Assembly (NCBI GenBank): GCA_947461705.1
Contig: CANHMF010000005.1
Span: 1-44,777, forward strand
Direction: 5' to 3'
Origin: Synechococcaceae cyanobacterium
Lineage (GTDB): Bacteria; Cyanobacteriota; Cyanobacteriia; PCC-6307; Cyanobiaceae
Length of the DNA: 44,777 nt
A program made the position numbers and the translations under genes. The notes under the pieces are model-generated. The model was not told the origin of the DNA. It saw only the letters and a list, made by a program, of their open reading frames with translations, and searched no databases. Position 1 is the first letter of the stretch; the number at the start of each line of letters is the position of its first letter. Shown one piece after another: positions 8,294-36,655 of this stretch.

Positions 8294-8364
8294 CGGCGAG
8301 TCGTGGCATGCATCGTGGGCATGTTGTAAGTTGTGGAGGCTGAATTGATGACCCCACGAAATCA

Positions 8365-17934: not shown

Positions 17935-18432
17935 ATGCTTGAGCTGCTGCCGCCGCTCAACGACCACAACCTGCCCTGGATGGACACGATCCATCCGATC
18001 GTCGTTCACTTTGTGATCGCGATGGCCCTGATCGCCTTCGTGTTCGATCTGGCGGGGGTTGTGCTGCGCAAGCCGGCTCTCTACGAGGTGAGCTTTTGGA
18101 ACCTGCTCTTCGCCACTGGAGCAATCTTCGTGGCGATCATCTTTGGCCAGGTGGAGGCGGGGCTTGCCTCGCCCTATGGGGCCGCCCGCAACATCCTCGA
18201 CATTCACACGACCATCGGCTGGTCACTGGCGGGGATCCTGTCGCTGCTCACCGGCTGGCGCTATGTGCTGCGTAACCGCGACCCCGAAAGCCTCCCCCTT
18301 CCCTTTCTGGGGGCCGGTGGCCTGGTGAGTGCCCTTGTGCTGGTGCAAGTTGTTCTCGGCGACAAGTTGATCTGGACCTATGGCCTCCACACCGTGAAGG
18401 TGGTGGCGGCGATGCGGGAGGGCTTGATCTGA
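17935..18432 (+). CDS. DUF2231 membrane protein (first copy)
   Basis: A 165-residue protein with four membrane helices. It begins with the DUF2231 pattern DTIHPIVVHFVIAMALIAFVFDL, where the H-P-x-x-V-H-F His residues could ligate a metal or heme. HTTIGW and TYGLHTVKV carry further His residues near helix ends. It stands first in the oxidase operon, shares one base with the next gene (TGATG), and the neighbours suggest a role in the assembly or function of the alternative terminal oxidase. No other evidence for function. Confidence 0.88.
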   Translation: MLELLPPLNDHNLPWMDTIHPIVVHFVIAMALIAFVFDLAGVVLRKPALYEVSFWNLLFATGAIFVAIIFGQVEAGLASPYGAARNILDIHTTIGWSLAGILSLLTGWRYVLRNRDPESLPLPFLGAGGLVSALVLVQVVLGDKLIWTYGLHTVKVVAAMREGLI

Positions 18433-19076
18433 TGGCTGCTCTTCCGCTGCTGATGGCGCTGGCTTATAGCCCAGCAGAGGCATCGATCGATCAGATTGCC
18501 TCCACGTTGGGAGCCAATGGCCTCCCTTACTCGCTGCCGATTCACCCAAACCTGGTGCACCTCACCATCGGGTTGTTTGTGATCGCCATCGCCTTCGACG
18601 TGGTGGGCGCGCTCTATCCCCTGGAGAAGCGGGTGTTCCGCTTCCTGGCTCTGCCCATCACCCGGGGTGGCTTCCACGATGTGGGTTGGTACAACCTGCT
18701 GGTGTGCTGCCTGGTGACCTTCTTCACCGTGGCGGCCGGCTTCTACGAAATGCTCACCGCGGTGCCTTTGCCGGGGGTCACCAGCACCTTCGGCGTCGGC
18801 AGCATGACCACCATGCTCTGGCATGGGGTTGGCGGTGTGCTGCTGCTGCTGATCATCACCGGGATGACGGTGTGGCGCGGCTTCCAACGCTTCGTGTGGC
18901 GCCGCGACATGGGCCGCCAGGTGCAGTGGCTCTACCTGGGTGTGGGGCTGGTGATGTTTGCGTTGCTCGGTCTGCACGGCACCCTCGGTGCCCAGTTGGC
19001 CGCTGAGTTCGGAGTGCATATCGCCGCTGATCAGCTGCTCCAGGCCGGGGCTGATCTGCACACCGCCCTGCCCTGA
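18432..19076 (+). CDS. DUF2231 membrane protein (second copy)
   Basis: A 214-residue protein of the same family: the segment LPIHPNLVHLTIGLFVIAIAFDVVGALYP gives the H-P-x-x-V-H pattern again, and HGVGGVLLLLIITGMTVWRG and ALLGLHGTLGAQLAAE lie in later helices. It has a short N-terminal extension (about 35 residues) that could be a weak signal. It stands 14 bases before ctaC, whose GAGGAG ribosome site is within the gap. Two paralogous DUF2231 genes next to an oxidase gene cluster is a recurring layout for the alternative oxidase of cyanobacteria, so I infer a linked role. Confidence 0.88.
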   Translation: MAALPLLMALAYSPAEASIDQIASTLGANGLPYSLPIHPNLVHLTIGLFVIAIAFDVVGALYPLEKRVFRFLALPITRGGFHDVGWYNLLVCCLVTFFTVAAGFYEMLTAVPLPGVTSTFGVGSMTTMLWHGVGGVLLLLIITGMTVWRGFQRFVWRRDMGRQVQWLYLGVGLVMFALLGLHGTLGAQLAAEFGVHIAADQLLQAGADLHTALP

Positions 19077-19090
19077 GGAGATCCTTAACC

Positions 19091-20029
19091 ATGACAAGCT
19101 CCTCGCCTCGACCCATCAACCGCCCGGCGGTGCTGGGCGTGTCCGCCTGGGTGGGCGTGTTGGTGCTGCTCAGCCATTGGATGGGCCAACAGGCCTACCA
19201 CTGGCTTCCGGTGCAGGCTTCCAATGCCGCCCCACTGGTGGATGGCCTGTTCAGCTTCGAAACCGCCCTCGGCACGTTTGTGTTTGCCGCTGTGGTGTCG
19301 GTGATGCTCTGGGTGATGGTGTTCAACCGCGCCGATAAATACGACGCAAGCGATGCCGTTCCGATCGAGGGCAACACCAAGCTCGAAGTGATCTGGACCG
19401 CCATTCCCTTCGTGCTGGTGATGGGAATTGCCGTGTATGCGATGCGGGTGAACCACACGCTGGGGGTGCTGGGCCCGATGGAGCACATTCACGCCCACAA
19501 CACCACGGAGATGCAGGGCGGCTACCCAGGTGATCGCCTGCCTGCAGAGCAGGTGGAAGTGATTGCCAGGCAATGGTCCTGGGAGTTTCGCTATCCGGGC
19601 AGCAACGTGTCGTCCACGGAGCTGCATCTGGCGGTGGACCAACCGGTGACCTTCCGGCTCACCTCAGACGACGTGCTGCATGGCTTTTACATCCCCGCCT
19701 TCCGGTTGAAGCAGGATGTGATTCCCGGTAGGGCCATTGATTTCAGCCTCACGCCCACCCGTGAAGGTCGCTACCGCCTGCGGGATTCGCAGTTCAGTGG
19801 CACCTGGTTCGCCGCCAACCAGGCCGATGTGGTGGTGCAGAGCCAGGACGACTATGCCCATTGGTTGCAGCAGGCCGCCGGTCAACCTCTGCAAGCGGGC
19901 TTGAGCCTGGCTTCCCAGGAATTCAGCGAGCGTCAGCAGCAGAAAAACCCCGGCTGGGCCACGGTGCCACCGGCGCCGCCCCCCCAGGTGAACGTTCCCG
20001 GATCCTCTTCACTCCCCCACGACGGCTGA
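19091..20029 (+). CDS. ctaC: Cytochrome oxidase subunit II lacking CuA ligands (ARTO type)
   Basis: A 312-residue subunit II with two N-terminal membrane helices and a cupredoxin domain in the periplasm or lumen. The substrate-side Trp is in QWSWEF and the first CuA His in DDVLHGF (His197). In the loop that normally reads C-x-E-x-C-x-x-x-H-x-x-M the residues are Asp232, Gln234, Ser236, Phe240 and Asn243, so the dinuclear copper site cannot form. This is the hallmark of the cyanobacterial alternative respiratory terminal oxidase, thought to take electrons from quinol rather than cytochrome c. The C-terminus has a Pro-rich tail. Confidence 0.94.
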   Translation: MTSSSPRPINRPAVLGVSAWVGVLVLLSHWMGQQAYHWLPVQASNAAPLVDGLFSFETALGTFVFAAVVSVMLWVMVFNRADKYDASDAVPIEGNTKLEVIWTAIPFVLVMGIAVYAMRVNHTLGVLGPMEHIHAHNTTEMQGGYPGDRLPAEQVEVIARQWSWEFRYPGSNVSSTELHLAVDQPVTFRLTSDDVLHGFYIPAFRLKQDVIPGRAIDFSLTPTREGRYRLRDSQFSGTWFAANQADVVVQSQDDYAHWLQQAAGQPLQAGLSLASQEFSERQQQKNPGWATVPPAPPPQVNVPGSSSLPHDG

Positions 20030-20033
20030 AGCC

Positions 20034-21710
20034 ATGACCAGCGCCACCTTCCCCGCCGATCCCAAGCCGCCCGCTGGTTGGACCCGTTATTTCGGCTTCA
20101 GCACCGATGCCAAGGTGATTGGTATCCAGTACATCGTGCTGGCGTTTTTCTTCTTCCTGGTGGGTGGCTTTCTGGCCATGATCATCCGGGGTGAATTGAT
20201 CACGCCGGCCTCGGATCTGGTGGATCGCACGGTTTACAACGGCATCTACACGATGCACGGAACCATCATGTTGTTCCTGTTCATCTTTCCGGTGCTGAAC
20301 GGGCTGAACAACCTGTTGATCCCCACCATGATCGGCGCCCCCGACATGGCCTTCCCCAGGCTCAACACGGCGGCCTTCTGGCTGGTGCCCGTGTTCTCCC
20401 TGCTGCTGGTGTCCAGTTTCTTTGTGCCGGGCGGCCCGGCGGCGGCCGGGTGGTGGTCCTATCCACCGGTGAGCATTCAGAACCCCCTCGGCCACTTCAT
20501 CAACGGCCAGTTCCTCTGGATCCTCGCGGTGGCTCTCTCCGGCATCTCCTCGATCATGGGGGCGGTGAATTTCGTGACCACCATCCTGCGGATGCGCGCA
20601 CCGGGCATGACCCTGTTCCGTATGCCGGTGTTCTGCTGGACGGCCTTGGCGGCACAAAGTCTGCAGTTGATCGGTCTGCCTGCCCTCACCGGTGGCGCCA
20701 TCATGTTGCTGATGGATCTCAGTTTCGGCACCAGCTTCTACCGGGCTGAAGGTGGTGGCGATCCGGTGCTGTATCAGCACTTCTTCTGGTTCTATTCTCA
20801 TCCGGCCGTGTATGTGATCATCCTGCCGGTGTTCGGAATCTTCTCCGAGATCTTCCCCGTTTATAGCCGTAAGCCACTGTTTGGCTACGTGTATGTGGCC
20901 GTGGCCTCCTTCATCATTGTGGGTCTGGGATTGGTGGTGTGGGTGCACCACATGTTCCCCAGTGGCGTATCCCAATGGATGCGTGATCTGTTCATGGGAA
21001 CCACCATGCTGATCGCCGTTCCTACCGGTGTGAAGGTGTTTGCCTGGCTGGGGACGATCTGGGGAGGCAAGCTTCGGCTCACCACCCCCATGCTGTTCTG
21101 CCTGGGGGGCTTGTTCAATTTCGTGTTTGCCGGCATCACCGGCATCATGCTGGCCACGGTGCCAGTGGATATTCACGTGTCCAACACTTATTTTGTGGTG
21201 GGCCATTTCCACTATGTGATCTATGGCGCTGCGGTGATGGGCATCTTTGCGGCCATCTACCACTGGTTCCCCAAGTTTACGGGTCGGATGCCCTACGAGG
21301 GCCTTGGCAAACTGCATTGTCTGCTCACTTTCGTGGGGGCGAACCTCAACTTCCTGCCCATGCATCCCCTCGGCCTGATGGGGATGCCCCGCCGGGTGTC
21401 GAGTTACGACCCTGAATTCACCTTCTGGAACGTGATCGCCAGTCTCGGGGCGTTCCTGCTGGGGGTGTCCATCATTCCCTTTCTGCTCAACATGTTGAGC
21501 TCCTGGATTCGTGGACCCAAGGCCGGCCACAACCCTTGGAATGCCATTGGCCTGGAGTGGTTGCTGCCCTCTCCCCCACCGGTGGAGAACTTCGAGGATG
21601 AGGTCCCCACCGTGATCAGCCGGCCGTATGGCTATGGCACTGGTGAACCGCTCGTGGAACACCAGGCGGAGATTGAACGGCGGCTGGAGCTGCAGGAGGC
21701 CACGGCATGA
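20034..21710 (+). CDS. ctaD: Heme-copper oxidase subunit I, type A2
   Basis: A 558-residue subunit I with 12 helices. Catalytic and heme-binding His residues are in YTMHGTIM (low-spin heme), FYSHPAVY (CuB ligand and cross-linked Tyr260), WVHHMF (two CuB ligands) and GHFHYVIYG (high-spin and low-spin heme). The D-channel Glu of A1 oxidases (GHPEVY) is Ala258 in YSHPAVY, which defines the A2 subfamily. The gene starts 4 bases after ctaC, so the two are in one operon. It reduces oxygen to water and pumps protons. The partner subunit II lacks CuA, so the electron donor is probably quinol. Confidence 0.97.
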   Translation: MTSATFPADPKPPAGWTRYFGFSTDAKVIGIQYIVLAFFFFLVGGFLAMIIRGELITPASDLVDRTVYNGIYTMHGTIMLFLFIFPVLNGLNNLLIPTMIGAPDMAFPRLNTAAFWLVPVFSLLLVSSFFVPGGPAAAGWWSYPPVSIQNPLGHFINGQFLWILAVALSGISSIMGAVNFVTTILRMRAPGMTLFRMPVFCWTALAAQSLQLIGLPALTGGAIMLLMDLSFGTSFYRAEGGGDPVLYQHFFWFYSHPAVYVIILPVFGIFSEIFPVYSRKPLFGYVYVAVASFIIVGLGLVVWVHHMFPSGVSQWMRDLFMGTTMLIAVPTGVKVFAWLGTIWGGKLRLTTPMLFCLGGLFNFVFAGITGIMLATVPVDIHVSNTYFVVGHFHYVIYGAAVMGIFAAIYHWFPKFTGRMPYEGLGKLHCLLTFVGANLNFLPMHPLGLMGMPRRVSSYDPEFTFWNVIASLGAFLLGVSIIPFLLNMLSSWIRGPKAGHNPWNAIGLEWLLPSPPPVENFEDEVPTVISRPYGYGTGEPLVEHQAEIERRLELQEATA

Positions 21711-22300
21711 CCAGCGCGATCCCTACGCCTGCTCCAGCCCACGGGCATGCTGAGCACCCCAAGCATAATCTCACCGGCTTCATCATCTTTCTGTGCTCTG
21801 AGAGCGTCATCTTTCTGGCGTTCTTCAGTGGCTACGCCATCCTCAAAACCTCAGCTCTCAACTGGTTGCCGGCCGGTGTGGATGGCCTCGAGTGGCGCAC
21901 CCCCTTGCTCAACACCGTGGTGCTGCTCTCCAGTTCCGGCGCCATCGTGGTGGCCGAGCACTTCAAGGCCAAGGACAAGCTCTGGCTGTTCCGGGGTTTC
22001 TGGCTGCTCACCATGGCCATGGGGGCCTATTTCCTCTATGGCCAGGCGGTGGAGTGGAGCGGCCTGAAGTTCGGGTTCACCTCAGGCACTTTCGGAGGAA
22101 CCTTCTATCTGCTCACCGGCTTCCATGGCCTGCATGTGGCCACGGGCATCCTGCTGATGGGGATCATGCTGATCAAATCGTTCATCCCTGGCAACTACGA
22201 CGGCGGCGAACAGGGTGTTCAGGCCACCTCCCTGTTCTGGCACTTCGTGGATGTGATCTGGGTGGTGCTGTTTCTCCTTCTCTACGTGTGGCAGGCCTGA
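21707..22300 (+). CDS. ctaE: Heme-copper oxidase subunit III
   Basis: A 197-residue subunit III with five membrane helices (GFIIFLCSESVIFLAFFSGYAIL, TVVLLSSSGAIVVAEHF, GFWLLTMAMGAYFLYGQ, FYLLTGFHGLHVATGILLMGIMLI, SLFWHFVDVIWVVLFLLLYV). The conserved E-x-x-H in WHFVDVIW and GFHGLHV motifs identify it. It overlaps ctaD by 4 bases (ATGA), so expression is coupled. It stabilises subunit I. The 16-base gap after it leads directly into the GMC oxidoreductase gene, so the operon may continue through the sugar enzymes. Confidence 0.94.
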   Translation: MTSAIPTPAPAHGHAEHPKHNLTGFIIFLCSESVIFLAFFSGYAILKTSALNWLPAGVDGLEWRTPLLNTVVLLSSSGAIVVAEHFKAKDKLWLFRGFWLLTMAMGAYFLYGQAVEWSGLKFGFTSGTFGGTFYLLTGFHGLHVATGILLMGIMLIKSFIPGNYDGGEQGVQATSLFWHFVDVIWVVLFLLLYVWQA

Positions 22301-22316
22301 TGTCAGGAGCTCAACC

Positions 22317-23831
22317 ATGATCATCGACGACAACCATTACGACGTGATTGTGATCGGCAGCGGTGCTGCCGGTGGCACTCTTGCCGGGCAGTTGGCGGCC
22401 TCCGGCAAGACCGTGCTGCTGTTGGAGCGTGGCGGTGCCATGCCCTTGGCCGATCAGAACGTGGCCGATGTGGATCTGTTCCGCAAAGACCGTTATCACC
22501 CCGGTGAGCAGTGGTTTGGCACGGATGGCGATCCCTTCTCTCCGCAGACGATCTATGCCCTCGGTGGCAACACCAAGATCTGGGGGGGCGTGCTGGAGCG
22601 CATGCGTGAACAGGAGTTCGCCGGTGTGCAGCTGCAGGACGGCACCACCCCCAGCTGGGAGATCAGCTACGCCGACCTGGCGCCCTATTACGAACGGGCT
22701 GAACAGCTCTACCGCGTTCATGGTGTGGCCGGCGTGGATCCCACGGAGCCTCCCCGCAGCGGCGATTACCCAGCCCGACCGCGGCCGGTGGAGCCGTTCA
22801 TGCAGGAGTTGCGCGTTGCCCTCGAGCGCCACGGCAGCCATCCCTACGACTTGCCCCTGAGCTGGTCGGAATCCCACCTGGACCCCACCGGTGATGCCGA
22901 ACTGTTCGGTGTTGATCTGGCCCGCAAGGCCAGCACAGTGACCGTGCGGGAGCGGGCCAAGGTGCGGCGGATGCACGTGAATCCCAGCGGCACCGAAGTG
23001 CGGGCCGTGGAGGTGGAGATCGATGGCCATGCCTGGCTGTTCAGTGCCCATGTGGTGGTGCTGGCCGCCGGTGCCGTGAACAGCGCTGAGATCCTGCTGC
23101 GCTCCGCCACGGACCACCACGCCCGTGGTCTGTCGAATGGTTCGGATCAGGTGGGCCGCAACCTGATGAAGCCCCAGCTCACCTCGATCATCCAGCTGGC
23201 CGCCGCCCCCAATTCCGGCCGCTACGGCCGCAGCTTCGGCATCACCGACTACTACTGGGGCGACCAGAACGTGAGCTTCCCGTTGGGCTCGATTCACAGC
23301 GGTGGCGGCGTCCTTCAGGACGCGCTGTTTGCTGAATCCCCGCCGGTGTTGTCGCTGGTGACCAAGCTGATGCCCAATTTCGGGCTGGAGCAGCTGGCCT
23401 CCCGTTCCGTGGCCTGGTGGGCGATGAGTGCCATGCGGCCTGATCCTCACAACCGGGTGGCCCTGCGGGGCAACCACCTGGAGATTCACTTTGTGGCCAA
23501 CAACCGTGAGGCCCACGACCGCCTGGTGTATCGCTGGATTGACACCCTCAAGCAGGTGGAGGCGGACCCCCTCACCCATGTGGTGAAACCGGCCCCCACC
23601 CATCCCCGCGGCGAGGCGCCCCTGACGGTGCTGGGCAGTGTGTGCGGCACCTGCCGCATGGGCTCCAATCCCGCCACCTCAGTGGTGGATCTCCAGGGCC
23701 AGAGCCATGAGCTGGTCAACCTCTACATCGCTGATGCCAGCCTGTTCCCGAGTTGTCCAGGTGTTGGCATTGGCCTCACGGTGATCGCCAACGCCCTGCG
23801 CATCGGCGAGCGCATCCTGGAGGCCCTGTGA
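22317..23831 (+). CDS. GMC-family flavoprotein, catalytic His and Asn replaced
   Basis: A 504-residue FAD-dependent oxidoreductase of the glucose-methanol-choline family. The FAD-binding motif VIGSGAAGGTLAGQLA near the start, YALGGNTKIWGGVLERM and the C-terminal NLYIADASLFPS are typical. Compared with the paralog three genes downstream, the Cys-rich segment is missing, the His before GTCR is Ser441 (LGSVCGTCRMG), and the Asn of VNPSLT is Gly484 (VGIGLT). The GMC active-site His-Asn pair is therefore absent, and normal substrate oxidation is doubtful. It may have a changed chemistry or act with the second copy. It follows ctaE by 16 bases and overlaps the next gene by 4 bases (GTGA). Confidence 0.9.
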   Translation: MIIDDNHYDVIVIGSGAAGGTLAGQLAASGKTVLLLERGGAMPLADQNVADVDLFRKDRYHPGEQWFGTDGDPFSPQTIYALGGNTKIWGGVLERMREQEFAGVQLQDGTTPSWEISYADLAPYYERAEQLYRVHGVAGVDPTEPPRSGDYPARPRPVEPFMQELRVALERHGSHPYDLPLSWSESHLDPTGDAELFGVDLARKASTVTVRERAKVRRMHVNPSGTEVRAVEVEIDGHAWLFSAHVVVLAAGAVNSAEILLRSATDHHARGLSNGSDQVGRNLMKPQLTSIIQLAAAPNSGRYGRSFGITDYYWGDQNVSFPLGSIHSGGGVLQDALFAESPPVLSLVTKLMPNFGLEQLASRSVAWWAMSAMRPDPHNRVALRGNHLEIHFVANNREAHDRLVYRWIDTLKQVEADPLTHVVKPAPTHPRGEAPLTVLGSVCGTCRMGSNPATSVVDLQGQSHELVNLYIADASLFPSCPGVGIGLTVIANALRIGERILEAL

Positions 23832-26491: not shown

Positions 26492-26553
26492 GGCAGCCAA
26501 AACCTTCAACGCTGTCTAGCTTGTGGGCAACGTGTCGGCCTCTGGCTGAGCCC

Positions 26554-28149
26554 ATGGTTGCCTCTCTTCCGTCCCTTGAGCAGCTGCAGGTTCCTGCGCA
26601 GACTCACTTTGATATGTTGATCATCGGCAGCGGGGCTGGGGGTGGCAGCCTGGCCCATCAGTTGGCCCCTTCTGGTCTGAAGATCCTCGTGTTGGAGCGG
26701 GGCGATTGGTTGCCCCGTGAGCGGGAGAACTGGGATGCCGATGCGGTGATGCAGCAGGGTCGCTATGTGTCGAAGGACACCTGGTTCGACCGGCATGGCA
26801 AGCCGTTCCAGCCCGGTAGCCATTACTTCGTGGGTGGTGCCACCAAGATGTACGGCGCGGCCCATTTCCGCCTGCGTCAGCGGGATTTTGAAGAGCTGCA
26901 CCATCACGACGGCATCTCGCCGGCCTGGCCCCTGCGCTACAGCGATTTCGAGCCCTATTACCAGCGGGCTGAGCAACTCTTCCATGTGCATGGTCTGCGG
27001 GGGGAAGATCCCACCGATCCCCCCAGCTCGGCACCCTTCCCCTATCCGCCGGTGTCCCATGAACCGCGGATGCAGAAACTGGTGGACGATCTGCGCGCCA
27101 TTGGTCTGCATCCCAGCCATGCGCCTTGCGGCGTGATGCTCGATGAAATCAATCCAGCCTTCAGCCGCTGCATTCGCTGCAACCGCTGCGATGGTTTCCC
27201 CTGTCTGGTGCATGCCAAAGGTGATGCGGAGGTGTGCTCGATGCGCCCCGCCTTGCAGGCGTCCAACGTGTCCCTGCTCACCCGCGCCCAGGTGAAGCGG
27301 TTGATCACCGATGCCTCCGGCCGCACGGTTACGGCGGTGGAGCTAGAGCGCGATGGTGAGCCGCTGCGGTACTCGGCTGACATCGTGGTGGTGAGCTGTG
27401 GCGCTGCCAACAGTGCCCGGCTGCTGTTGATGTCGGCCAACGACAAGCATCCCCGTGGCCTGGCCAACAGTTCGGATCAGGTGGGGCGGAACTATATGTT
27501 CCATAACAGCAAAGCCATGGTGGCCCTGGCCCATGAGCCCAACACCACCGTGTTTCAGAAAACGGTGTGCATTAACGACTGGTATTTCGGCTCGGAAGAC
27601 TTTGACTATCCGATGGGGAATATCCAGATGACGGGCAAAACGGATGGCTCGATCATGAAGGGCTATGTGCCCCAGGAAACCTTCTTCATGCCCACCTGGA
27701 GCATGGATAAGATCGCTGAGCATGCCCTGGATTTCTGGGTGTCAAGTGAGGATCTGCCGGACCCCAACAACCGCGTCACCATCAATGCGGAGGGTCAGAT
27801 TCATTTGAGCTACACCCCGAACAACCAGATGGCTGCCACGAAGCTCAACAACAAGCTCGTGTCCGTGTTGGATCACCTCTACCTCAAGAACCATCTGGTG
27901 GAGCGCCAGATCTATTTCAAGAGCACCATGGGAATCGCTGCCGTGGGGCACCAGGCCGGCACCTGCCGTTTTGGCACGGATCCAGCCAGTTCGGTGCTGG
28001 ACATTCACTGCAAGGCCCACGACCTCGACAATCTCTACGTGGTGGACACCAGCTTCTTCCCCAGCATTGGAGCGGTGAACCCCTCACTCACAGCCATCGC
28101 CAATGCCATTCGCGTTGGCGAGCATCTGGTGGAGCGCTTGGGCCGTTAA
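26554..28149 (+). CDS. GMC-family FAD oxidoreductase with Cys cluster
   Basis: A 531-residue protein. The FAD motif IIGSGAGGGSLA (residues 23-34) and the substrate-domain residues are intact: His466 in GHQAGTCRFG and Asn509 in GAVNPSLT, the GMC active-site pair. The region Cys206, Cys209, Cys212, Cys217 and Cys228 (SRCIRCNRCDGFPC then EVCSM) forms a Cys cluster that resembles the 3Fe-4S or disulfide region of GMC dehydrogenases related to fructose and gluconate dehydrogenase. No signal peptide is seen. A sugar- or alcohol-type dehydrogenase role is expected. It is convergent to the DoxX operon, with 15 bases between the ends. The ATG at 26554 follows a 62-base gap after the hydrolase; an upstream frame reaching back into the hydrolase is rejected. 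Confidence 0.9.
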   Translation: MVASLPSLEQLQVPAQTHFDMLIIGSGAGGGSLAHQLAPSGLKILVLERGDWLPRERENWDADAVMQQGRYVSKDTWFDRHGKPFQPGSHYFVGGATKMYGAAHFRLRQRDFEELHHHDGISPAWPLRYSDFEPYYQRAEQLFHVHGLRGEDPTDPPSSAPFPYPPVSHEPRMQKLVDDLRAIGLHPSHAPCGVMLDEINPAFSRCIRCNRCDGFPCLVHAKGDAEVCSMRPALQASNVSLLTRAQVKRLITDASGRTVTAVELERDGEPLRYSADIVVVSCGAANSARLLLMSANDKHPRGLANSSDQVGRNYMFHNSKAMVALAHEPNTTVFQKTVCINDWYFGSEDFDYPMGNIQMTGKTDGSIMKGYVPQETFFMPTWSMDKIAEHALDFWVSSEDLPDPNNRVTINAEGQIHLSYTPNNQMAATKLNNKLVSVLDHLYLKNHLVERQIYFKSTMGIAAVGHQAGTCRFGTDPASSVLDIHCKAHDLDNLYVVDTSFFPSIGAVNPSLTAIANAIRVGEHLVERLGR

Positions 28150-28164
28150 GCGGCCGCCGCCCCA

Positions 28165-28662
28165 TCAATTCAGGGCCAGCCTGAGCAGGTCTGCAATCAG
28201 GAGGTTGTCGAGGGAGAACAGGCCGCCGCCGCAGAACATGGTGACCAGGCACATCACCACGTACATGGCGGCCTTCTCCCAGCTCGGCGGCTCACCGATT
28301 CCCATGGGGCCCACGTAGTCGCCCTCCGGAATCTGGTAGGGATCCGGTGCAAACCAGGGGAAGCCCGCCTTGATCTCGATCACCATGGCGTACGCCATGG
28401 AGACGAGGATCGCCAGGGCGGCCAGGGGCGTGAGCAGTCCGGGAATCAGGGCAATGCCGGCCCCCCACATGGAGGCCGCGGAGAGAAAACACAGCCATTG
28501 CGGCGTGTTCATCGCCGTGGCCCAGGTTTTCAGGTTGCGCAGTTTGGGCCAGCCGTGGCGAATGAAGGCGATGCCCAGGAACAGGCGCAGCACCAACAGC
28601 GAGGCCTGGGCCAGGGTTGAAGGCGCCTCTGGCACCAGCAGTTCCACCACGGTGATCTCCAT
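28165..28662 (-). CDS. DoxX-family membrane protein
   Basis: A 165-residue protein with four membrane segments. The segment LLVLRLFLGIAFIRHGWPKLRN and GAGIALIPGLLTPLAALAILVSMAYAMVIEIK are typical of the DoxX/DoxD-like family, which includes subunits of thiosulfate:quinone oxidoreductases and many membrane proteins of redox stress. It is the last gene of a minus-strand run of seven genes. The start at 28662 is chosen because the protein then starts right before the first helix; the gap to the previous stop is 61 bases. Confidence 0.86.
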   Translation of the reverse strand: MEITVVELLVPEAPSTLAQASLLVLRLFLGIAFIRHGWPKLRNLKTWATAMNTPQWLCFLSAASMWGAGIALIPGLLTPLAALAILVSMAYAMVIEIKAGFPWFAPDPYQIPEGDYVGPMGIGEPPSWEKAAMYVVMCLVTMFCGGGLFSLDNLLIADLLRLALN

Positions 28663-28723
28663 TGCGAGGCCTCTTGCTGGGCGCAAGGTAGAGACGTTTG
28701 GTTGGGCTTGCACACCCCTGTGA

Positions 28724-29707
28724 TCAGGGGCTCACCAGTTGCAGTTGGTGGCCATCGGGATCGCGCACCTGAAGGCCACGGCCGAAGCCCAGCAGCTCCG
28801 CCTGGGCTGGCTCGAGCTGCACGATGCCGGGGCTCACCCTGCTGCCGCCATGGCTCTCCAGCTGGGCGTCGATCGAATCGAGATCACTCACCTCGAGGCG
28901 TATCTGCCAGTGGGCAAGATCCGCGGCGTGCTGATCGGCTGGTATGGGGCGGCCCCCCTGGGGCTGTTGGTAGTTCAGGCATTCCACCCCAGCTCCTTCG
29001 CCGCAGCGATGGGATGTGATCTGCACCTGGGTGTTGTCCAGGCCATCGAGCTGGTCTTGTTCCGGGCCGCTGTTGATGCCGTTGCCCCCCAGCCGCAGCC
29101 CCAGCAGCCCTTCGTAGAACCGGCAGCTCCGTGGGGTGTCGGCATTGGCGATGGCGCTGTGGTCGATGCCGAGGAAGGGTGAGGTCGCCGAGCCGGCCGC
29201 CTGATGCCAGCGGGCGTCGCCTTTGTCCGGTGGGAACTGCAGCAGCTCCAGGCAGTGGCCTTCCGGGTCATGCACTTTGTAAGCCTGAATGCCGGCAGCG
29301 GCGGCGTTCCAGCTCGGCAGGGTCTGAGGTGCCGTGGAGATGGCCGCCAGCGCTCCTGCCGCAACGCTGGCCTGGAGCGGCGCTGCAGCCTCGGCCATGG
29401 TGGCCACCACAATGCAGATGTGCTGGAACCACAGATCGCAGCTGCGGGAATCGCCTGGCACGGGCCGGCCGGGCCGCAGGCCGGGGCCCAGGGTCAGCAC
29501 CTCGGTGAGCTCCAGCTGTTCCTGGCCTAGTTGCAGTTGCAGCAGCTGCAACCGTGAACCGGGCAGCCCGATCAGTTCCGCGTAGTTGCCGCCCTCGATG
29601 ACCAGGCTCCGGCCTGGCTGACACCCCAGGTTCGCGCCATAGAAGTGCGCCAGTTGCTCGGCATGGGCCGTGGTGAAGCCAAGGCTGCGGATGTGGGGGA
29701 GGTTCAT
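28724..29707 (-). CDS. Double-domain VOC/glyoxalase-fold protein
   Basis: A 327-residue protein with two glyoxalase/bleomycin-resistance-like (VOC) units: residues 4-160 (LGFTTAHAEQLAHFYGANLGCQPG; ending KVHDPEGHCLELLQFP) and residues 177-326 (GIDHSAIANADTPRSCRFYEGLLGL; ending QVRDPDGHQLQLV). Each ends in the D-P-x-G-H-x-x-x-L motif with metal-binding positions. Such tandem-domain proteins may be dioxygenases, isomerases or fosfomycin-type enzymes, so the reaction is uncertain. Its start overlaps the stop of the upstream gene by 4 bases (ATGA), confirming the operon. Confidence 0.84.
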   Translation of the reverse strand: MNLPHIRSLGFTTAHAEQLAHFYGANLGCQPGRSLVIEGGNYAELIGLPGSRLQLLQLQLGQEQLELTEVLTLGPGLRPGRPVPGDSRSCDLWFQHICIVVATMAEAAAPLQASVAAGALAAISTAPQTLPSWNAAAAGIQAYKVHDPEGHCLELLQFPPDKGDARWHQAAGSATSPFLGIDHSAIANADTPRSCRFYEGLLGLRLGGNGINSGPEQDQLDGLDNTQVQITSHRCGEGAGVECLNYQQPQGGRPIPADQHAADLAHWQIRLEVSDLDSIDAQLESHGGSRVSPGIVQLEPAQAELLGFGRGLQVRDPDGHQLQLVSP

Positions 29708-30129
29708 GGTTGGCTTTGCAGGGCCTGCAGGCCTGCACTGGCGATGGCGGCATCCAGGTCCGGAGTCATCCCGGAGACGCCGATGGCTCCGATGCAGCTG
29801 GAGCCGATCAGGAAGGGGAGCCCGCCCGCCATGGCAGCGGACGGTTGCTGCAGCAGCCCTGCCAGCTGCAGCAGGCCTGGCCGGGACCCATTGATGCTCG
29901 CTTCCATCTCCGCGGTGGGCTTGCCACAGAGGGCGGCCATGCGTGCCTTGGCGATCGCGGTTTCACCACTGGAAATGCTGGCACCGTCCAGGCGTTGGAA
30001 GGCCAGCAGATGGCCGCCACCATCCACCACCGCAACGCTCACCAGCCCCTGGTGGCTGTCGGCATGGGCGCGGCTGGCCTGCAGGGCCAGTGCGGCGTCG
30101 TTTAGATCGAGGGTTTGTTGGGGATGCAT
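29704..30129 (-). CDS. GlcG/HbpS-like (DUF336) heme-binding-type protein
   Basis: A 141-residue protein of the GlcG/HbpS family. Signatures are VSVAVVDGGGHLLAFQRLDGA near residue 30-50 and the SAAMAGGLPFLIGSSCIGAIGVSGM segment near 95-120, where the family packs an octameric scaffold. HbpS members bind heme or respond to redox; GlcG stands next to glycolate oxidation genes. The presence beside a lactonase and glyoxalase is in line with GlcG-type operons. It overlaps the next gene by 4 bases. Confidence 0.85.
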   Translation of the reverse strand: MHPQQTLDLNDAALALQASRAHADSHQGLVSVAVVDGGGHLLAFQRLDGASISSGETAIAKARMAALCGKPTAEMEASINGSRPGLLQLAGLLQQPSAAMAGGLPFLIGSSCIGAIGVSGMTPDLDAAIASAGLQALQSQP

Positions 30130-30142
30130 CGGGACTGGCTCC

Positions 30143-30400
30143 TCAACCCCAGACGATCTTCATCAGCCAGAGGTGACCCTCCAGCTCCACGCCGGCGGCG
30201 GCGGCCTCCAGGTCGGCCTGGCTGAGCCGCAGGGTGGCCTCCGCCTGGTGTGTCACCAGATCGACTCCCGTGAACACATAGCCCAGTTCCGCCCCGAGCT
30301 GGGCGATGGCATTGAGATGGGGGCAGGCGCTGAAGCGAGACAACAGATCGGCATCGGCCTTCACGCGCTGGAGAAAGGCTTCGAGTTGGGGGTTGGCCAT
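30143..30400 (-). CDS. Nif11-like leader peptide protein
   Basis: An 85-residue protein. The start NPQLEAFLQRVKADADLLSR and AIAQLGAELGYVF are the Nif11 domain pattern. Near the end LSQADLEAAAAG (residues 59-70) resembles the LSDEELEAVAGG cleavage signal of Nif11 precursor peptides, with the Gly pair weakened to Ala-Gly. The 15-residue tail that follows, VELEGHLWLMKIVWG, has no Cys, Ser or Thr, so classic lanthionine formation is not possible. It could be a degenerate RiPP precursor or a Nif11 protein with another role. It lies 6 bases after the SMP-30 gene and is in the same operon. Confidence 0.85.
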   Translation of the reverse strand: MANPQLEAFLQRVKADADLLSRFSACPHLNAIAQLGAELGYVFTGVDLVTHQAEATLRLSQADLEAAAAGVELEGHLWLMKIVWG

Positions 30401-30406
30401 GGGGAT

Positions 30407-31330
30407 TCAGGGCGTTTGGGCGCCGCGGGTGTTGGTGAACAGGCTGTAGAGCGCCGTGGAGGCGCACAGAAAGATGCGGCTGTGGTGGCGGTCGCCGAAG
30501 CAGAGGTTCGACACTCGCCTGGGCACCAGCACCTTGCCCAGCAGGGTGCCGTCGGGGGCAACCACGTGGACGCCATCGCCAGCGCCGCACCAGAGGTTGC
30601 CGTGTTCATCCACGCGGAAGCCATCGGCCCAGCCGCAGCTGATCTTGTGGAACAGCTCGCCACCGCTGAGGCTGCGGCCATCGGCGCTCACCTGGAAGCG
30701 TCGGATGTACTGGCGCGGGTTGGCCACGCCGGCGCTCCCGGATTCCGCCACATAGAGCACGCTCTCGTCGGGGGAGAAGGCCAGGCCGTTGGGGCCGTCG
30801 AAGTCGGTGGCCATCGCCTGCACAGCCCCGGACTCGGGCTCAAGGCGGTAAAGCGCAGGGGGCTGCTCGGAGTGCTGGCGCCCGCCCTCGTAGTCATTGA
30901 GCAGGCCGTAGAGGGGATCGCTGAACCAGATCGAGCCATCCCGTTTCACCACCACGTCGTTGGGGGCGTTGAGCCGATGCCCCCCGGCCTGGCTCACCAG
31001 GGTGGTGCTGCTGCCGTCGTGCTCCAGACGGCTGAGGCAGCGGCTCTGGTGGTGGCACTGAATCAGCCGCCCCTGTGGGTCGCGGGTTTGGCCGTTGGCG
31101 TACTGCGAGGACTCGTGGAACACGCTCACCCCATGCTGTTCGCTCCAGCGCAGGGTGCGGTTGTTGGGGATGTCGTTGAACAGCAGACACTGGTGGTCGC
31201 CGAACCACACCGGCCCCTCCAGCCAGCGGAAGCCCTCGGCGAGCAGCTCCAGCTCGGCGTTGAACAGCACCAGCTGCTCAAAGCGCGGGTCGTAGCTCTC
31301 GGTGCAGGGGGAGGGGTGGGTGCTCGCCAT
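30407..31330 (-). CDS. SMP-30/gluconolactonase-family lactonase
   Basis: A 307-residue six-bladed beta-propeller. Metal-site residues are visible: Glu in WLEGPVWF, Asn in NAPNDVVV, Asn in DGPNGLAFS and Asp in WADGFRVD, matching Glu, Asn and Asp ligands of SMP-30. No signal peptide, so it is probably cytoplasmic. Family members hydrolyse gluconolactone or other sugar lactones. With two GMC oxidoreductases, a glycosidase and a glucose-dehydrogenase-like SDR nearby, lactone hydrolysis in a sugar oxidation pathway is a natural reading, although it is an inference. Confidence 0.9.
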   Translation of the reverse strand: MASTHPSPCTESYDPRFEQLVLFNAELELLAEGFRWLEGPVWFGDHQCLLFNDIPNNRTLRWSEQHGVSVFHESSQYANGQTRDPQGRLIQCHHQSRCLSRLEHDGSSTTLVSQAGGHRLNAPNDVVVKRDGSIWFSDPLYGLLNDYEGGRQHSEQPPALYRLEPESGAVQAMATDFDGPNGLAFSPDESVLYVAESGSAGVANPRQYIRRFQVSADGRSLSGGELFHKISCGWADGFRVDEHGNLWCGAGDGVHVVAPDGTLLGKVLVPRRVSNLCFGDRHHSRIFLCASTALYSLFTNTRGAQTP

Positions 31331-31350
31331 CGCTGTGGGGTTGGTGGTGG

Positions 31351-31812
31351 TCAGGAGAAGAACCCCGGCCGTGCCCGCCGCCAGGCCTGGTCGTTGCGCT
31401 GAATGATCAGCTGCACGCAGGGTTCATCCCCCACCTGGGCGGAGAGATGGCCCCGCTGTCCCGCGGGTGTGGCGATGCAGTCCTGGTCGCCCCCGAAGGA
31501 ATACTCGCCGGCCCGCATGATCACCTTGCGGCCATCCATGCTTTCCACCGACCAGGCCCCGCGCAGCACGTAGATCCATTTGGGGATGTGGTTCTCATGC
31601 CAGTCGGCCGTCCAGCCCACGGGCAGGTAGGTCACGAAGGCATTGCCCTGATCGAACAGGGGGCGGGAGAACTGCGGGGAATCACCGGGGCCCAGTTGGC
31701 CGAGCTCGAAGGAGCTGATCGTGCACTGCTCCTGCCGACTGAGGCCCTGGTCGTCGGTCCAGAGATGCCAATAGGGCTCCGGTGCCGGAGCCAGGCTGAA
31801 GGGGTCAGGCAT
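31351..31812 (-). CDS. Cupin-domain protein
   Basis: A 153-residue single-domain cupin. Motif 1 is WTADWHENHIPKWIYVLRGAWSVE (His in WHENH) and motif 2 is AGEYSFGGDQDCIATPAGQRGHLS. His of both motifs could bind a metal, but the usual Glu of motif 1 is Lys-Trp. Cupins beside RidA and SMP-30 genes are often dioxygenases or isomerases in small-molecule catabolism. It lies 12 bases after RidA and 20 before SMP-30, so one transcript is likely. Confidence 0.85.
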   Translation of the reverse strand: MPDPFSLAPAPEPYWHLWTDDQGLSRQEQCTISSFELGQLGPGDSPQFSRPLFDQGNAFVTYLPVGWTADWHENHIPKWIYVLRGAWSVESMDGRKVIMRAGEYSFGGDQDCIATPAGQRGHLSAQVGDEPCVQLIIQRNDQAWRRARPGFFS

Positions 31813-31824
31813 GGTTGAAGGGGA

Positions 31825-32229
31825 TCAGTCTTTGATGGCGATGGCGGAAATCTCCAGCTGGATGCCCAGCACCAGGGCCGCCACCTGCACCACGGCCCGG
31901 GAGGGATAGCCCTGGCTGTCGGGGAAGTACTCCTGCCACACCAGATCAAAGGTGTCGAGCTTGTCGATGTCAGTGAGATACACGGTGGCACTCACGACGT
32001 GTTCAAAACCAAAGCCTGCCTCCTCGAGCACCGCCCGCATGTTCTCCATCACCTGACGCGATTCCACGGTGATGTCGCCGTCGCCCACCTTGAGGTTGGT
32101 GACGGGGTCGACCGGTAGCTGCCCGGTGATGAACAGTGTGTTGTTGTGCTGAAAACCCTGGCTGTAAGAGGCAACGGGCTTGGGGAAGCGGTCGCTGTGG
32201 ATGGCGCGACGGATCACAGCTGTGCTCAT
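31825..32229 (-). CDS. RidA-family enamine/imine deaminase
   Basis: A 134-residue protein of the RidA (YjgF) family. The residues SRAVVQVAAL with the Arg that binds the substrate carboxylate and the EISAIAI end are kept, as are TGQLPVDPVTN and ATVYLTDIDKLDTFDLVWQEYF. It hydrolyses reactive enamines and imines made by PLP enzymes and oxidases. The start at 32229 is preferred to a longer in-frame version; the MSTAVIRRAIHSDRFPKP beginning is typical. It is the first gene of a seven-gene minus-strand operon and lies 11 bases after the inverted repeat. Confidence 0.91.
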   Translation of the reverse strand: MSTAVIRRAIHSDRFPKPVASYSQGFQHNNTLFITGQLPVDPVTNLKVGDGDITVESRQVMENMRAVLEEAGFGFEHVVSATVYLTDIDKLDTFDLVWQEYFPDSQGYPSRAVVQVAALVLGIQLEISAIAIKD

Positions 32230-32240
32230 CGGCGTATCGG

Positions 32241-32264
32241 CGTTGCAGAGATCTCTCTGCAACG
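32241..32264. promoter_or_regulatory. Perfect inverted repeat with 11-bp arms in the ridA/SDR divergent region
   Basis: Arms CGTTGCAGAGA and TCTCTGCAACG are exact reverse complements separated by TC. The repeat lies 11 bases before the RidA start codon and inside the 195-base region between the RidA operon and the SDR gene. Perfect repeats of this length are typical of operators bound by TetR-, LacI- or GntR-type dimers. A half-site GTTGCAGA recurs near the SDR start at 32353. A hairpin in the RidA leader is the other reading. No regulator gene is in the window. Confidence 0.6.
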
Positions 32265-32424
32265 TAGGGATCTCCTGGCAGATGTCAGCGCCCTGTCATG
32301 GGTCGAAGGCCGGATCACCTGCCGCTGGCGTGAGCGTCTCCCATTCACAGGTGTTGCAGATGGCGGCATGGCTTGCAGGTGCCCACTAGCGTGCGCGCAA
32401 CATGCTCCCTCGCCTGGCTGCGCC

Positions 32425-33231
32425 ATGACCACAATCAATCCCTACGCGCTTGAAACCCTTTCCAACTTTCTTAAGGGCAAGGTGATCATCGTGACTGGTG
32501 GCAACAGCGGCATCGGGAAGGCGATTGTGGAAACCATTGGCCGGCTGGGCGCCAAGGTGGTGATCGACTACCGCTCCCATCCCGAAGCCACCGAGGCGAT
32601 CGAGGAGGAGATTGGCGAATTGGGGGGCACTTGTATCGGCGTGCAGGCCGACGTGGGCAAGCTCGAGGATCTGCAGCGGCTGATCAACGAGGCCGTGAGC
32701 CGTTACGGCCGCCTCGATGTGATGGTGAACAACGCCGGCATTGAAACGCGCACCTCCATCCTCGACACCACACCCGACGATTTCGACAAGGTGTTGAACG
32801 TGAACCTGCGGGGCGTGTTCTTCGCCACCCAGTACGCGGCCAAGCAGATGATCGCCCAGGGAGGCGGTGGTCGGGTGATCAATATCTCGTCGGTGCATGA
32901 GGACTGGCCCATGCCCAATAACACTCCCTACTGCGTGGCGAAGGGGGGCGTGCGCATGCTCACCCGCACCGCCGGTGTGGAGCTCGCTCCCCATGGCGTG
33001 TCGATCGTGAATGTGGGCCCTGGTGCGGTGGCCACCCCCATCAACGACTCCACGATGAACAACCCTGAGCTGCTGGCCAAGCTCAACGCCGCGATCCCCA
33101 TGGGACGCATGGCCCAGCCCGAGGAGATCGCCAAGCTGGTGGCCTTCCTGGCGAGTGACTCTGCCAGTTACATCACGGCCACCACCATCTTTGCGGATGG
33201 CGGCATCATGCAGAGCAGCCCGGGCCTCTGA
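32425..33231 (+). CDS. SDR-family oxidoreductase, glucose 1-dehydrogenase-like
   Basis: A 268-residue classical short-chain dehydrogenase. TGGNSGIG (NAD(P)-binding, residues 27-34), NNAGIE, the ISSVHEDW Ser, and YCVAKGG with Tyr and Lys are all in place. The N-terminal and central segments (KVVIDYRSHPEATEAI, YGRLDVMVNNAG) and the C-terminal FLASDSASYITATTIFADGGI match glucose 1-dehydrogenase-type SDRs. The reading frame extends upstream but ATG 32425 gives the normal length. It is divergent from the RidA operon and next to an inverted repeat. A role in glucose oxidation is probable but not proven. Confidence 0.9.
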   Translation: MTTINPYALETLSNFLKGKVIIVTGGNSGIGKAIVETIGRLGAKVVIDYRSHPEATEAIEEEIGELGGTCIGVQADVGKLEDLQRLINEAVSRYGRLDVMVNNAGIETRTSILDTTPDDFDKVLNVNLRGVFFATQYAAKQMIAQGGGGRVINISSVHEDWPMPNNTPYCVAKGGVRMLTRTAGVELAPHGVSIVNVGPGAVATPINDSTMNNPELLAKLNAAIPMGRMAQPEEIAKLVAFLASDSASYITATTIFADGGIMQSSPGL

Positions 33232-34017: not shown

Positions 34018-35301
34018 GTGCTGCGTCCACGAACACTCCTGAAGCAGTTGCTCCAGTTGGCCGTTTTGGGCCTGCTGGTGGGTCTGGCCTGCTGGCCTTT
34101 CAATCTGTTCGACCAGTGGCAGGACGCCCTGCTTCGCCGCCTTCCCGCCTTCACGGGCCAGCGTTGGTCGGCCCAGGCCGTGGCCTTGGCCTGCTCGCCG
34201 CTGCTGGCGACTCCGCTGGTGTTGTGGCTGCAGACGGGCCCCTGGCAGCGCGGTGCCGGCTCAGGCATCCCCCAGACCATGGCCAGCATCGAGGAGCCTG
34301 ACCAGGCTCGCCGCTTGCTGGGTCCGCTGCCCACGCTGCAGCGGCTCGGCCTCTGGGGCATCGCCACCCTGGCCCTGATGCCGATGGGCCGGGAGGGCCC
34401 GGTGGTGCAGGTGGGTGCTTCGGTGGCTGAGGGGTTGCGCCGTCGCTTCCCCGCCCTGCTGCCCGAGCTCCACCAGGGGCAGTTGTTGGCGGTGGCCGCC
34501 GGCGCTGGCCTGGCGGGTGGGTTCAACACCCCCTTGATGGGGGCGGTGTTTGTCGCCGAGGAGCTCACCAGCTCCTTTCAGGCCTCGTTGGTGTGGCCTG
34601 CGTTGGTGGTGTGTGGGGTGGCTGCAGCCTTCAGCAACCTGGCCGGTCAGCCGGAATTTGCCCTCGGCATCCTGGGCGTGGAGCCGATCGAGCTGATCCA
34701 GGTGCTTTGGGCGGTGCCGATCGGTGTGGCCGGTGGCTTGTTGGGGGCTCTGTTCGGCCGGCTGCTGCTGGCGATGACCGCACGCCTCAAGCCCCAGGTG
34801 CGCCGTTATCCCCTGCGGATCGGCCTGGCCTTGGGTGGATTGCTCAGTTTGTTTGCGGTGCTGAGCCGTGGCACCAGCACCGGCGATGGTGAGGCGCTGA
34901 TGACCCACATCCTGGCCGGCGATGGCCTCGATGGGGTGGGTTCGAGCCTGCTCACCCTGGTGGTGCGGGTGATTGGCCCGGTATTGGCCCTCGGCGCGGG
35001 GATCCCCGGGGGTTTGATCGATCCGTCCCTCGCTTTCGGGGCTGTGTTCGGCCGCGGGCTTGGGGATCTGGCCGGCCTGGGCCCCTTGGGCATGGCCCTG
35101 GGGATGGCGGCGGGTCTGGCCGGTGCCACCCAGCTGCCGGTGATGACCGTGGTCTTCGCCCTGCGCCTGGCGGGGGATCAGCAGTTGCTGCCAGGGGTCC
35201 TGGTGTCGGCGGCCCTGGCGGCCTATGTGAGCCGGCTGCTGCTGGCCAAGCCCATCTACCACTCGCTGCGGGAGCTGTTTGCCGCCCCTACCGCTCCGTG
35301 A
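34018..35301 (+). CDS. CLC-family chloride channel/antiporter
   Basis: A 427-residue membrane protein. The CLC signatures are visible: GSGIPQ (Ser107-type), GREGPVVQVG with the gating Glu, FVAEELTSSF with the internal proton Glu pair, and GAGIPGGLIDPSLAFGA. Both glutamates are kept, so a chloride/proton exchanger is more likely than a passive channel. The start is the GTG at 34018. There is no CBS domain. The 3' end overlaps the convergent NADH dehydrogenase gene by 14 bases. Confidence 0.9.
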   Translation: MLRPRTLLKQLLQLAVLGLLVGLACWPFNLFDQWQDALLRRLPAFTGQRWSAQAVALACSPLLATPLVLWLQTGPWQRGAGSGIPQTMASIEEPDQARRLLGPLPTLQRLGLWGIATLALMPMGREGPVVQVGASVAEGLRRRFPALLPELHQGQLLAVAAGAGLAGGFNTPLMGAVFVAEELTSSFQASLVWPALVVCGVAAAFSNLAGQPEFALGILGVEPIELIQVLWAVPIGVAGGLLGALFGRLLLAMTARLKPQVRRYPLRIGLALGGLLSLFAVLSRGTSTGDGEALMTHILAGDGLDGVGSSLLTLVVRVIGPVLALGAGIPGGLIDPSLAFGAVFGRGLGDLAGLGPLGMALGMAAGLAGATQLPVMTVVFALRLAGDQQLLPGVLVSAALAAYVSRLLLAKPIYHSLRELFAAPTAP

Positions 35302-36604: not shown

Positions 36605-36655
36605 CACAGACCACTGACTAGCCCAACGCTATCGGGATTTGCGTGGACGTCTGCC

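Follow-up and report, generated by a model that had tools for sequence, protein, structure and literature searches.

The closest described relative of the gene cluster considered here is the operon of the type-1 alternative respiratory terminal oxidase (ARTO; Qox, formerly Cox3) of Anabaena PCC 7120, given in the excerpted text of a review as alr2729-alr2730-coxB3-coxA3-coxC3, in which the two genes upstream of the oxidase are already known as operon members (PMC6616624). The same excerpts describe it as not clear whether cyanobacterial bo3-type quinol oxidases exceed three subunits. In Synechocystis, ARTO (ctaD2/E2) was implicated in Fe(III) reduction by Kranzler et al., as reported in excerpts of PMC7676907 and PMC10119275; the latter also describes ARTO as an adaptation found in low-iron Prochlorococcus, and its Fig. 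7C depicts the ARTO region of one strain of that genus. We analyzed a cluster at positions 17935-33231 of a 44,777-nucleotide stretch of DNA from a Synechococcaceae cyanobacterium of the order PCC-6307, class Cyanobacteriia (contig CANHMF010000005.1, assembly GCA_947461705.1). The whole stretch is referred to as the window, and its contig is part of a 2.2 Mb draft genome that is 89% complete and, judged by its relatives, probably that of a picocyanobacterium. The cluster pairs an oxidase operon of the same type, extended by a sixth gene for a protein of the GMC family (GMC1), with a set of genes suited to glucoside release and oxidation.

We read this arrangement as two modules side by side, a six-gene ARTO operon with dedicated partners (module A) and an independent module for glucoside use (module B), and consider this account as a whole to be probably correct. 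Our confidence in the division into two modules and in the six-gene operon is strong, and the assignment of GMC1 as a partner of ARTO is likely. Module A lies on the plus strand and begins with two DUF2231 membrane proteins, DUFa (17935..18432) and DUFb (18432..19076), both matching Pfam PF09990. They are followed by ctaC (19091..20029; COX2 and COX2_TM), ctaD (20034..21710; COX1) and ctaE (21707..22300; COX3), which are adjacent and encode heme-copper oxidase subunits II, I, and III in a single operon, and then by GMC1 (22317..23831), a flavin adenine dinucleotide (FAD) protein that matches PF00732 and PF05199 (GMC_oxred_N/C) over the cut-off. For alignments of conserved residues, 168 loci were searched and rows under the identity or 75% coverage filters were dropped, which left 139 rows for DUFa, 143 for DUFb and 147 for CtaC. 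In place of the two CuA cysteines, CtaC has Asp 232 and Ser 236 in 147/147 rows, that of the window included. The oxidase is thus predicted to be of the quinol type, a bo3-type ARTO of type 1, as a preliminary description of this DNA had proposed. CtaCDE would take electrons from plastoquinol and reduce O2, and the DUF2231 pair and GMC1 would act as dedicated oxidase partners, most likely as additional subunits or as factors for assembly and electron input rather than as a sugar dehydrogenase.

The partnership was examined across 150 genomes of the order, searched with five window proteins plus DUFa, with ctaD counted as ARTO-type at an identity of at least 75% (the next rows reach at most 56%). 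ARTO-type ctaD is present in 80 of the 150 genomes. GMC1 occurs in exactly these 80 and in none of the other 70. It follows ctaE directly in 78 of the 80, starting 588-698 nucleotides past ctaD, which leaves space for ctaE alone; in the remaining two it lies on the same strand 3.0 kb (G093) and 4.8 kb (G066) downstream. The order DUF2231-DUF2231-ctaC-ctaD-ctaE-GMC1 and its strand are kept in 79/79 ARTO regions from other genomes of the order, an arrangement beyond chance. Four genera (g2, g5, g9, and g10) mix genomes with and without ARTO, and GMC1 tracks ARTO in each. Intact DUFa is found in the same 80 genomes, the other 70 holding only one remnant. This remnant, 62 residues long (G043:C20:20340-20525), belongs to a genome without ARTO-type ctaD.

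Across 252 genomes of the class, where ctaD was counted as ARTO-type at an identity of at least 64% and lower rows were not counted, the matches listed comprise 129 ARTO-type ctaD loci in 124 genomes; all class counts of ctaD and GMC1 are among the matches listed and may be slightly low. At 101 of the 129 loci (100 genomes), GMC1 lies downstream on the same strand within 2 kb, and six more ARTO genomes have it elsewhere (G370, G270, G175, G318, G278, and G368). Its displacement was verified by reading the loci of G370, G318, G278, and G270, and contig ends are nearby in G175 and G368. In one further genome (G229) a ctaD of 74% identity, missing from the ctaD table, stands beside GMC1 in the locus itself (L108). 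The attachment of GMC1 to the oxidase, which the preliminary description had claimed for the whole run of genes, is therefore borne out for this gene, which follows ARTO across the class.

A search of named genomes confirmed 243 relatives of GMC1, and the 80 best of these 243 are all cyanobacterial by record title. The gene ctaE stands just upstream of GMC1 in 73 of these best 80 loci, and 51 of the 80 match exactly the six genes in order. Of the seven loci without ctaE, three (L184, L196, and L218) have a contig end within 1.8 kb of their start, one (L225) has 3.4 kb of upstream sequence and three (L162, L181, and L206) have 7 kb. Carriers of the six genes or of GMC1 include Crocosphaera watsonii WH 8501, Leptolyngbya PCC 7375, Lyngbya aestuarii, Planktothrix rubescens, and Okeania, and GMC1 is also kept in two Epithemia endosymbionts (L217 and L228) with chromosomes of 2.8 and 3.1 Mb. 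Leptolyngbya sp. PCC 7375 has a second GMC1 copy (L206) distant from the ARTO operon, the operon copy being in L150.

GMC enzymes carry a His together with an Asn or a second His beside the flavin. The solved glucose dehydrogenase aligns with His and Asn at these catalytic positions, and in the window the same positions are Ser and Gly in GMC1 and His and Asn in GMC2, the GMC dehydrogenase of module B. To place this difference, 253 GMC sequences from the loci were reduced to 220 distinct ones, 169 of GMC1 and 51 of the GMC2 type, the latter including GMC2 matches below 60% identity that were excluded from one other GMC comparison. Nine of the 51 GMC2-type rows are shortened where the locus ends; for at least some of these the complete gene is present as well. 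GMC1 forms one clade of 169 tips with a support of 0.943 in a tree rooted on a GMC2 tip. The two catalytic residues occur together in none of the 169 GMC1 sequences (His alone in nine, Asn alone in three), and both are present in 42/42 complete GMC2-type rows, the nine shortened rows still having the His. A CxxCxxCxxxxC motif, which aligns with the cysteines of the Fe-S cluster in FAD glucose dehydrogenase and probably holds such a cluster, is found in 48 of the 51 GMC2-type rows, shortened ones included, versus 0/169 for GMC1. With the catalytic pair absent throughout, GMC1 is unlikely to oxidize sugars by the GMC mechanism, and the role of sugar oxidizer that had been proposed for it is not supported.

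GMC1 nevertheless retains much else. The GxGxxG motif for FAD is present in 167 of the 169 sequences, and stretches outside the lost site are near-invariant (for example NNxEAHDRLVYRW), with GMC1 identity across the class at roughly 46-59%. The open reading frame begins right at the flavin-binding fold, and GMC1 is therefore probably cytoplasmic. A CGxC pair lies near the position of the lost His in 152 of the 169 sequences and is missing from the other 17. We considered it as a redox-active pair and did not retain it, as it is conserved in only those 152.

The DUF2231 pair is marked by invariant histidines, at positions 20, 25, 91, and 152 of DUFa (139/139 rows) and at positions 38, 43, 131, and 196 of DUFb (143/143 rows). 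An AlphaFold model of DUFa shows four long helices, with a mean predicted local distance difference test score (pLDDT) of 82.5. Given their positions in the helices of this model and the charged loops that follow helices 1 and 3, the DUFa histidines would cluster near the outer face of the membrane, and the histidines of both proteins could bind heme, metal or quinone. The profile Ni_hydr_CYTB, of the cytochrome b561 family, is matched weakly by 35 of 42 DUF2231 members (best E 0.0027). A di-heme protein of the cytochrome b561 kind is no more than a candidate reading, since a mere five residues separate two of the four histidines. A Foldseek search with the DUFa model gave no PDB match at E ≤ 0.001, and the DUFa profile found nothing at E ≤ 1 among PDB sequences. 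A second fold search with DUFa gave Z scores of 13-14 to heme-copper oxidase subunit III and to designed bundles alike, which perhaps reflects only a common helical-bundle arrangement, and we drew no function from it.

Two more specific accounts of module A start from these residues. One is an enlarged ARTO redox complex, present in most cyanobacteria, in which the DUF2231 pair would hold hemes or metal near the outer face through its eight histidines and GMC1 would be a repurposed flavoprotein that exchanges electrons, perhaps through a thiol pair beside the flavin, the whole serving as an electron entry or as a periplasmic Fe(III)-reducing branch; in this particular form we regard it as unlikely. 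The other makes GMC1 catalytically dead, a purely structural or assembly subunit of ARTO, and is likewise a doubtful candidate. The loss of the dyad in every GMC1 sequence alongside a nearly universal FAD motif, together with the almost invariant stretches outside the lost site, speaks for a structural subunit. That the flavin site is kept points to redox use instead, and the CGxC pair hints at chemistry, though 17 sequences do without it.

Module B starts directly behind module A. Its first gene, on the plus strand, encodes an MGH1-like/GH63 glycoside hydrolase (GH) that runs from 23840 (ATG) or 23828 (GTG) to 26491 and matches PF22422 and PF03200 over the cut-off. The protein has about 880 residues and a weak match to processing alpha-glucosidase I. 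Its profile match to solved GH63 enzymes is patchy, and the acid and base residues could not be mapped. GMC2, with the His/Asn pair and the CxxCxxCxxxxC motif, follows on the same strand from 26557 (ATG) or 26449 (TTG) to 28149. On the minus strand are a DoxX-family membrane protein (28165..28713; PF07681) and a VOC/glyoxalase-fold protein (28724..29707; PF00903), and then the more variable part of the module: an HbpS/GlcG-like protein (29704..30129; PF03928), a small Nif11-domain protein (30143..30400; PF07862), an SMP-30/gluconolactonase-like lactonase (30407..31330; PF08450), a cupin (31351..31812; PF07883), and RidA (31825..32262, its ATG probably at about 32229; PF01042 and TIGR00004 above the cut-off). 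A glucose-dehydrogenase-like short-chain dehydrogenase/reductase (SDR), identified by family match, is divergent from RidA on the plus strand (about 32428..33231). The GH63-like hydrolase would release a sugar, GMC2, with its probable Fe-S cluster, and the SDR would oxidize it, SMP-30 would open the resulting lactone, and RidA and other products would clear by-products.

Family searches thus found every gene named in the preliminary description at its position and strand, and a set for glucoside release and oxidation is plausible given GH, GMC2 with its intact pair and Fe-S cysteines, the SDR, and SMP-30. The plus-strand run (17935-28149) faces the minus-strand run (28165-32262). The plus-strand genes do form a tight run, but its description as mostly overlapping was generous, since only two of the seven junctions overlap for certain. 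Two others overlap only with a GTG or TTG start, the rest are gaps of 4-16 bases, and a start of GMC2 at its ATG would make the gap before it the largest, at 65 bases. Such tight spacing in the window's lineage suggests co-transcription of modules A and B, in which case electrons from GMC2 could reach the quinone pool drained by ARTO. Scans for regulatory signals were set aside: the promoter scan gave no promoter-like sites against 3.0 expected, and the terminator scan gave 18 terminator-like sites against 9.5 expected, nearly all within genes by coordinates.

That the whole cluster is one functional island, in which the glucosidase frees a sugar for oxidation by both GMC proteins and the SDR, with SMP-30 opening the lactone and the quinol oxidase as the outlet for the electrons, was the proposal of the preliminary description, and we judge it improbable. 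The distribution of GH within the order lends it some credit. GH orthologs, defined by an identity of at least 60%, occur in 48 of the 150 genomes, all ARTO-bearing (48/80 with ARTO, 0/70 without); one further genome (G116) has only a 51% paralog and was left out of the 48. GH starts 11-77 nucleotides after GMC1 in 30 of the 48 and lies 8-20 kb off in another 14, so that ARTO is within 20 kb of GH in 44 of the 48. In one genome (G113) a contig break splits GMC1, the larger piece being 56 nucleotides from GH. GMC2, moreover, resembles membrane-linked FAD glucose and fructose dehydrogenases. Set against this, GMC1 lacks the catalytic pair, 32 of the 80 ARTO genomes have no GH ortholog, and GH and ARTO are not neighbors in 18 of the 48; the absence of GH from all 70 genomes without ARTO may reflect genome reduction. 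In three genomes (G063, G120, and G137) GH is on another contig, in 19-kb regions that have GH-GMC2 and no oxidase gene, and in G083 it sits toward the other end of the contig, at a distance from the operon of about 3 kb if the contig is circular. Within the GH family, a second member about 46-51% identical was also seen in some genomes of the order (G010:C2, G145:C9, G116:C59, G040:C14, G134:C2, G046:C170, G140:C27, G052:C6, and G063:C7, the last in two pieces).

The composition of the detached copies supports two separate modules. GMC2, at an identity of at least 68%, is present in 45 genomes of the order, all with GH, and starts 36-322 nucleotides behind it. Where GH-GMC2 is detached from the oxidase, it is still accompanied by opposite-strand DoxX and VOC genes and by the SDR (L256, L258, L259, L266, and L267), genes that travel with it as a separate unit. 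The variable part is less constant: SMP-30 matched in 36 genomes, of which five with only weaker matches were left out (G032, G052, G086, G126, and G127), leaving 31 at an identity of at least 47%; 26 of these have GH, no more than 15 kb away in 25. Of the 252 class genomes, 136 have GH relatives (E ≤ 1e-100, for the most part 46-52% identical). In 11 class GH regions, hand-picked for long flanks and so not random, a GMC2-like gene is close to GH in seven, with the order GMC2-SDR-GH in four (L241, L242, L244, and L245). Five of these seven regions are from genomes without ARTO-type ctaD among the matches listed (G158, G159, G178, G181, and G290), which indicates a recurrent sugar set that does not depend on the oxidase.

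The coupling of sugar use to the oxidase, as first proposed, therefore stands in part: every order genome with GH has ARTO, mostly close by, and the loss of the catalytic pair from GMC1 makes one of its steps unlikely. On comparison of neighborhoods, GH, GMC2, and the RidA operon are largely independent of the oxidase and GMC1 is not; in particular, the tie of GH-GMC2 to the oxidase fails in the non-adjacent genomes and in those five class genomes. The link most worth reporting is that between the oxidase, GMC1, and the two DUF2231 proteins, rather than that between the oxidase and a sugar pathway.

Several observations weigh against the two-module account with dedicated ARTO partners. Most of the ARTO-lacking genomes of the order are small (54 of 70 below 2.0 Mb), and genome reduction may account for much of the co-absence; one block deletion can remove neighbors together, and co-absence alone is no proof of joint function. 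GMC1 was not found in 18 of the 124 ARTO genomes of the class among the matches listed, so ARTO can function without it. Conversely, GMC1 occurs without ARTO-type ctaD among the matches listed in two draft genomes (G155 and G204), which are possible exceptions. The DUF2231 family is wider than ARTO, being present in 3 of 14 control genomes, and a third DUF2231 copy lies away from the operon in each of three genomes searched of one family (f32). GMC1 could also act on small molecules by other chemistry, which makes its exclusion from sugar enzymes a deduction from the lost residues, and its AlphaFold model (mean pLDDT 50.6) was too poor and was not used. In a second family (f31), two of three genomes (G343 and G354; L254 and L255) show no ctaC next to the DUF2231 pair.

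The 18 ARTO genomes without GMC1 among the matches listed are concentrated in these two families, with 13/13 genomes of f32 and 3/3 of f31, plus G193 and G185. All 13 genomes of f32 carry HetR, and f32 therefore probably consists of heterocyst formers. Reading of six f32 regions and that of G193 showed the DUF2231 pair and ctaCDE, without GMC1, in all seven. In one HetR-bearing genome (G239), a distinct 686-residue flavin-type protein (L231:10858-12918) lies about 1.2 kb after ctaE, at the usual place of GMC1; the other f32 loci listed show no such protein there. In f31, the locus of G343 appears to read tyrA, ctaD, ctaE, which is presumably the order of Synechocystis PCC 6803, and f31 genomes would accordingly appear Synechocystis-like. 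In all three f31 genomes a long distance separates the DUF2231 pair from ctaD; in one of them (G210) the pair adjoins ctaC.

That GMC1 and ARTO are neighbors through inherited synteny without joint function is very improbable: adjacent genes share the fate of deletion and most ARTO-lacking genomes of the order are small, but the gene order persists across the class at the identities given above, and GMC1 is retained in G370, G318, G278, and G270 despite its move from the operon and in both Epithemia endosymbionts.

Elsewhere in the window, a pyridine-nucleotide-disulfide oxidoreductase gene (35288-36607, minus strand; PF07992) lies 2 kb beyond the SDR; its product resembles type II NADH dehydrogenase and could be a further feed into the quinone pool. 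A 403-residue frame (7188-8399, minus strand) combines a Nif11 domain with a cupin match slightly below the Pfam cut-off, a second pairing of Nif11 and cupin in the window. A 1149-residue frame (7-3456, plus strand) has no Pfam match and is either a real large protein or a mere open frame. A P-type cation ATPase (41262-44009, minus strand) and a TauE/SafE exporter (44158-44775, minus strand) adjoin rhodanese and metallo-beta-lactamase genes, and together these perhaps form a sulfur-handling group.

In the open-access literature we found no paper linking GMC proteins to ARTO, in a search that ran outside supplements and the Schmetterer 2016 chapter and covered longer result sets in part, and none combining DUF2231 with cyanobacteria. 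By word occurrence, neither GMC nor DUF2231 appears in the main text of PMC10119275, and the excerpted endosymbiont paper lists ARTO, with GMC absent from its main text (PMC12903740). According to excerpts of a comparative paper, a GMC oxidoreductase listed under carbohydrate metabolism, which may or may not be GMC1, is common to Prochlorococcus and marine Synechococcus (PMC4734447).

For module B, both GMC proteins are closest in sequence, among solved structures, to the large subunits of FAD-dependent glucose dehydrogenase (6a2u) and fructose dehydrogenase (7w2j). GMC2 has the His/Asn pair and the four-Cys motif in common with them, and GMC1 has neither. Unlike enzymes of the 6a2u and 7w2j type, GMC2 has no gene for a small subunit or a cytochrome c subunit adjacent to it, its neighbors being GH and DoxX. 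By its matches to PF22422 and PF03200, the window GH is allied to GH63 and mannosylglycerate hydrolase-like glycosidases, and its sugar substrate would be a glucoside.

For module A, the Anabaena PCC 7120 operon is alike in its three heme-copper subunits, in a subunit II without CuA and in its two upstream genes, as far as the excerpted review describes it (PMC6616624). The position of the window DUF2231 pair, together with the f32 loci of HetR-bearing genomes, suggests its equivalence to alr2729-alr2730. As printed there, however, the Anabaena operon has no GMC1, whereas the window and most of the sampled ARTO cyanobacteria have it as the sixth gene. The Synechocystis ARTO is the same type of oxidase as that of the window, but the three Synechocystis-like genomes have ctaD apart from the DUF2231 pair and GMC1 was not found in them, whereas the window has all of these together. 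What is new is GMC1 as a near-constant partner of ARTO that is missing in genomes resembling the usual model strains. The ARTO mutant work cited in the excerpted sources used Synechocystis and Anabaena, and genomes resembling these are without GMC1. Should GMC1 and the two DUF2231 proteins turn out to be subunits or electron partners of ARTO, the mutants studied would represent a form of the enzyme that differs from the one in most cyanobacteria, including marine species. If the enlarged redox complex were real, its Fe(III)-reducing branch would hold the activity credited to ARTO itself, and ARTO would exceed the three subunits assumed for it.

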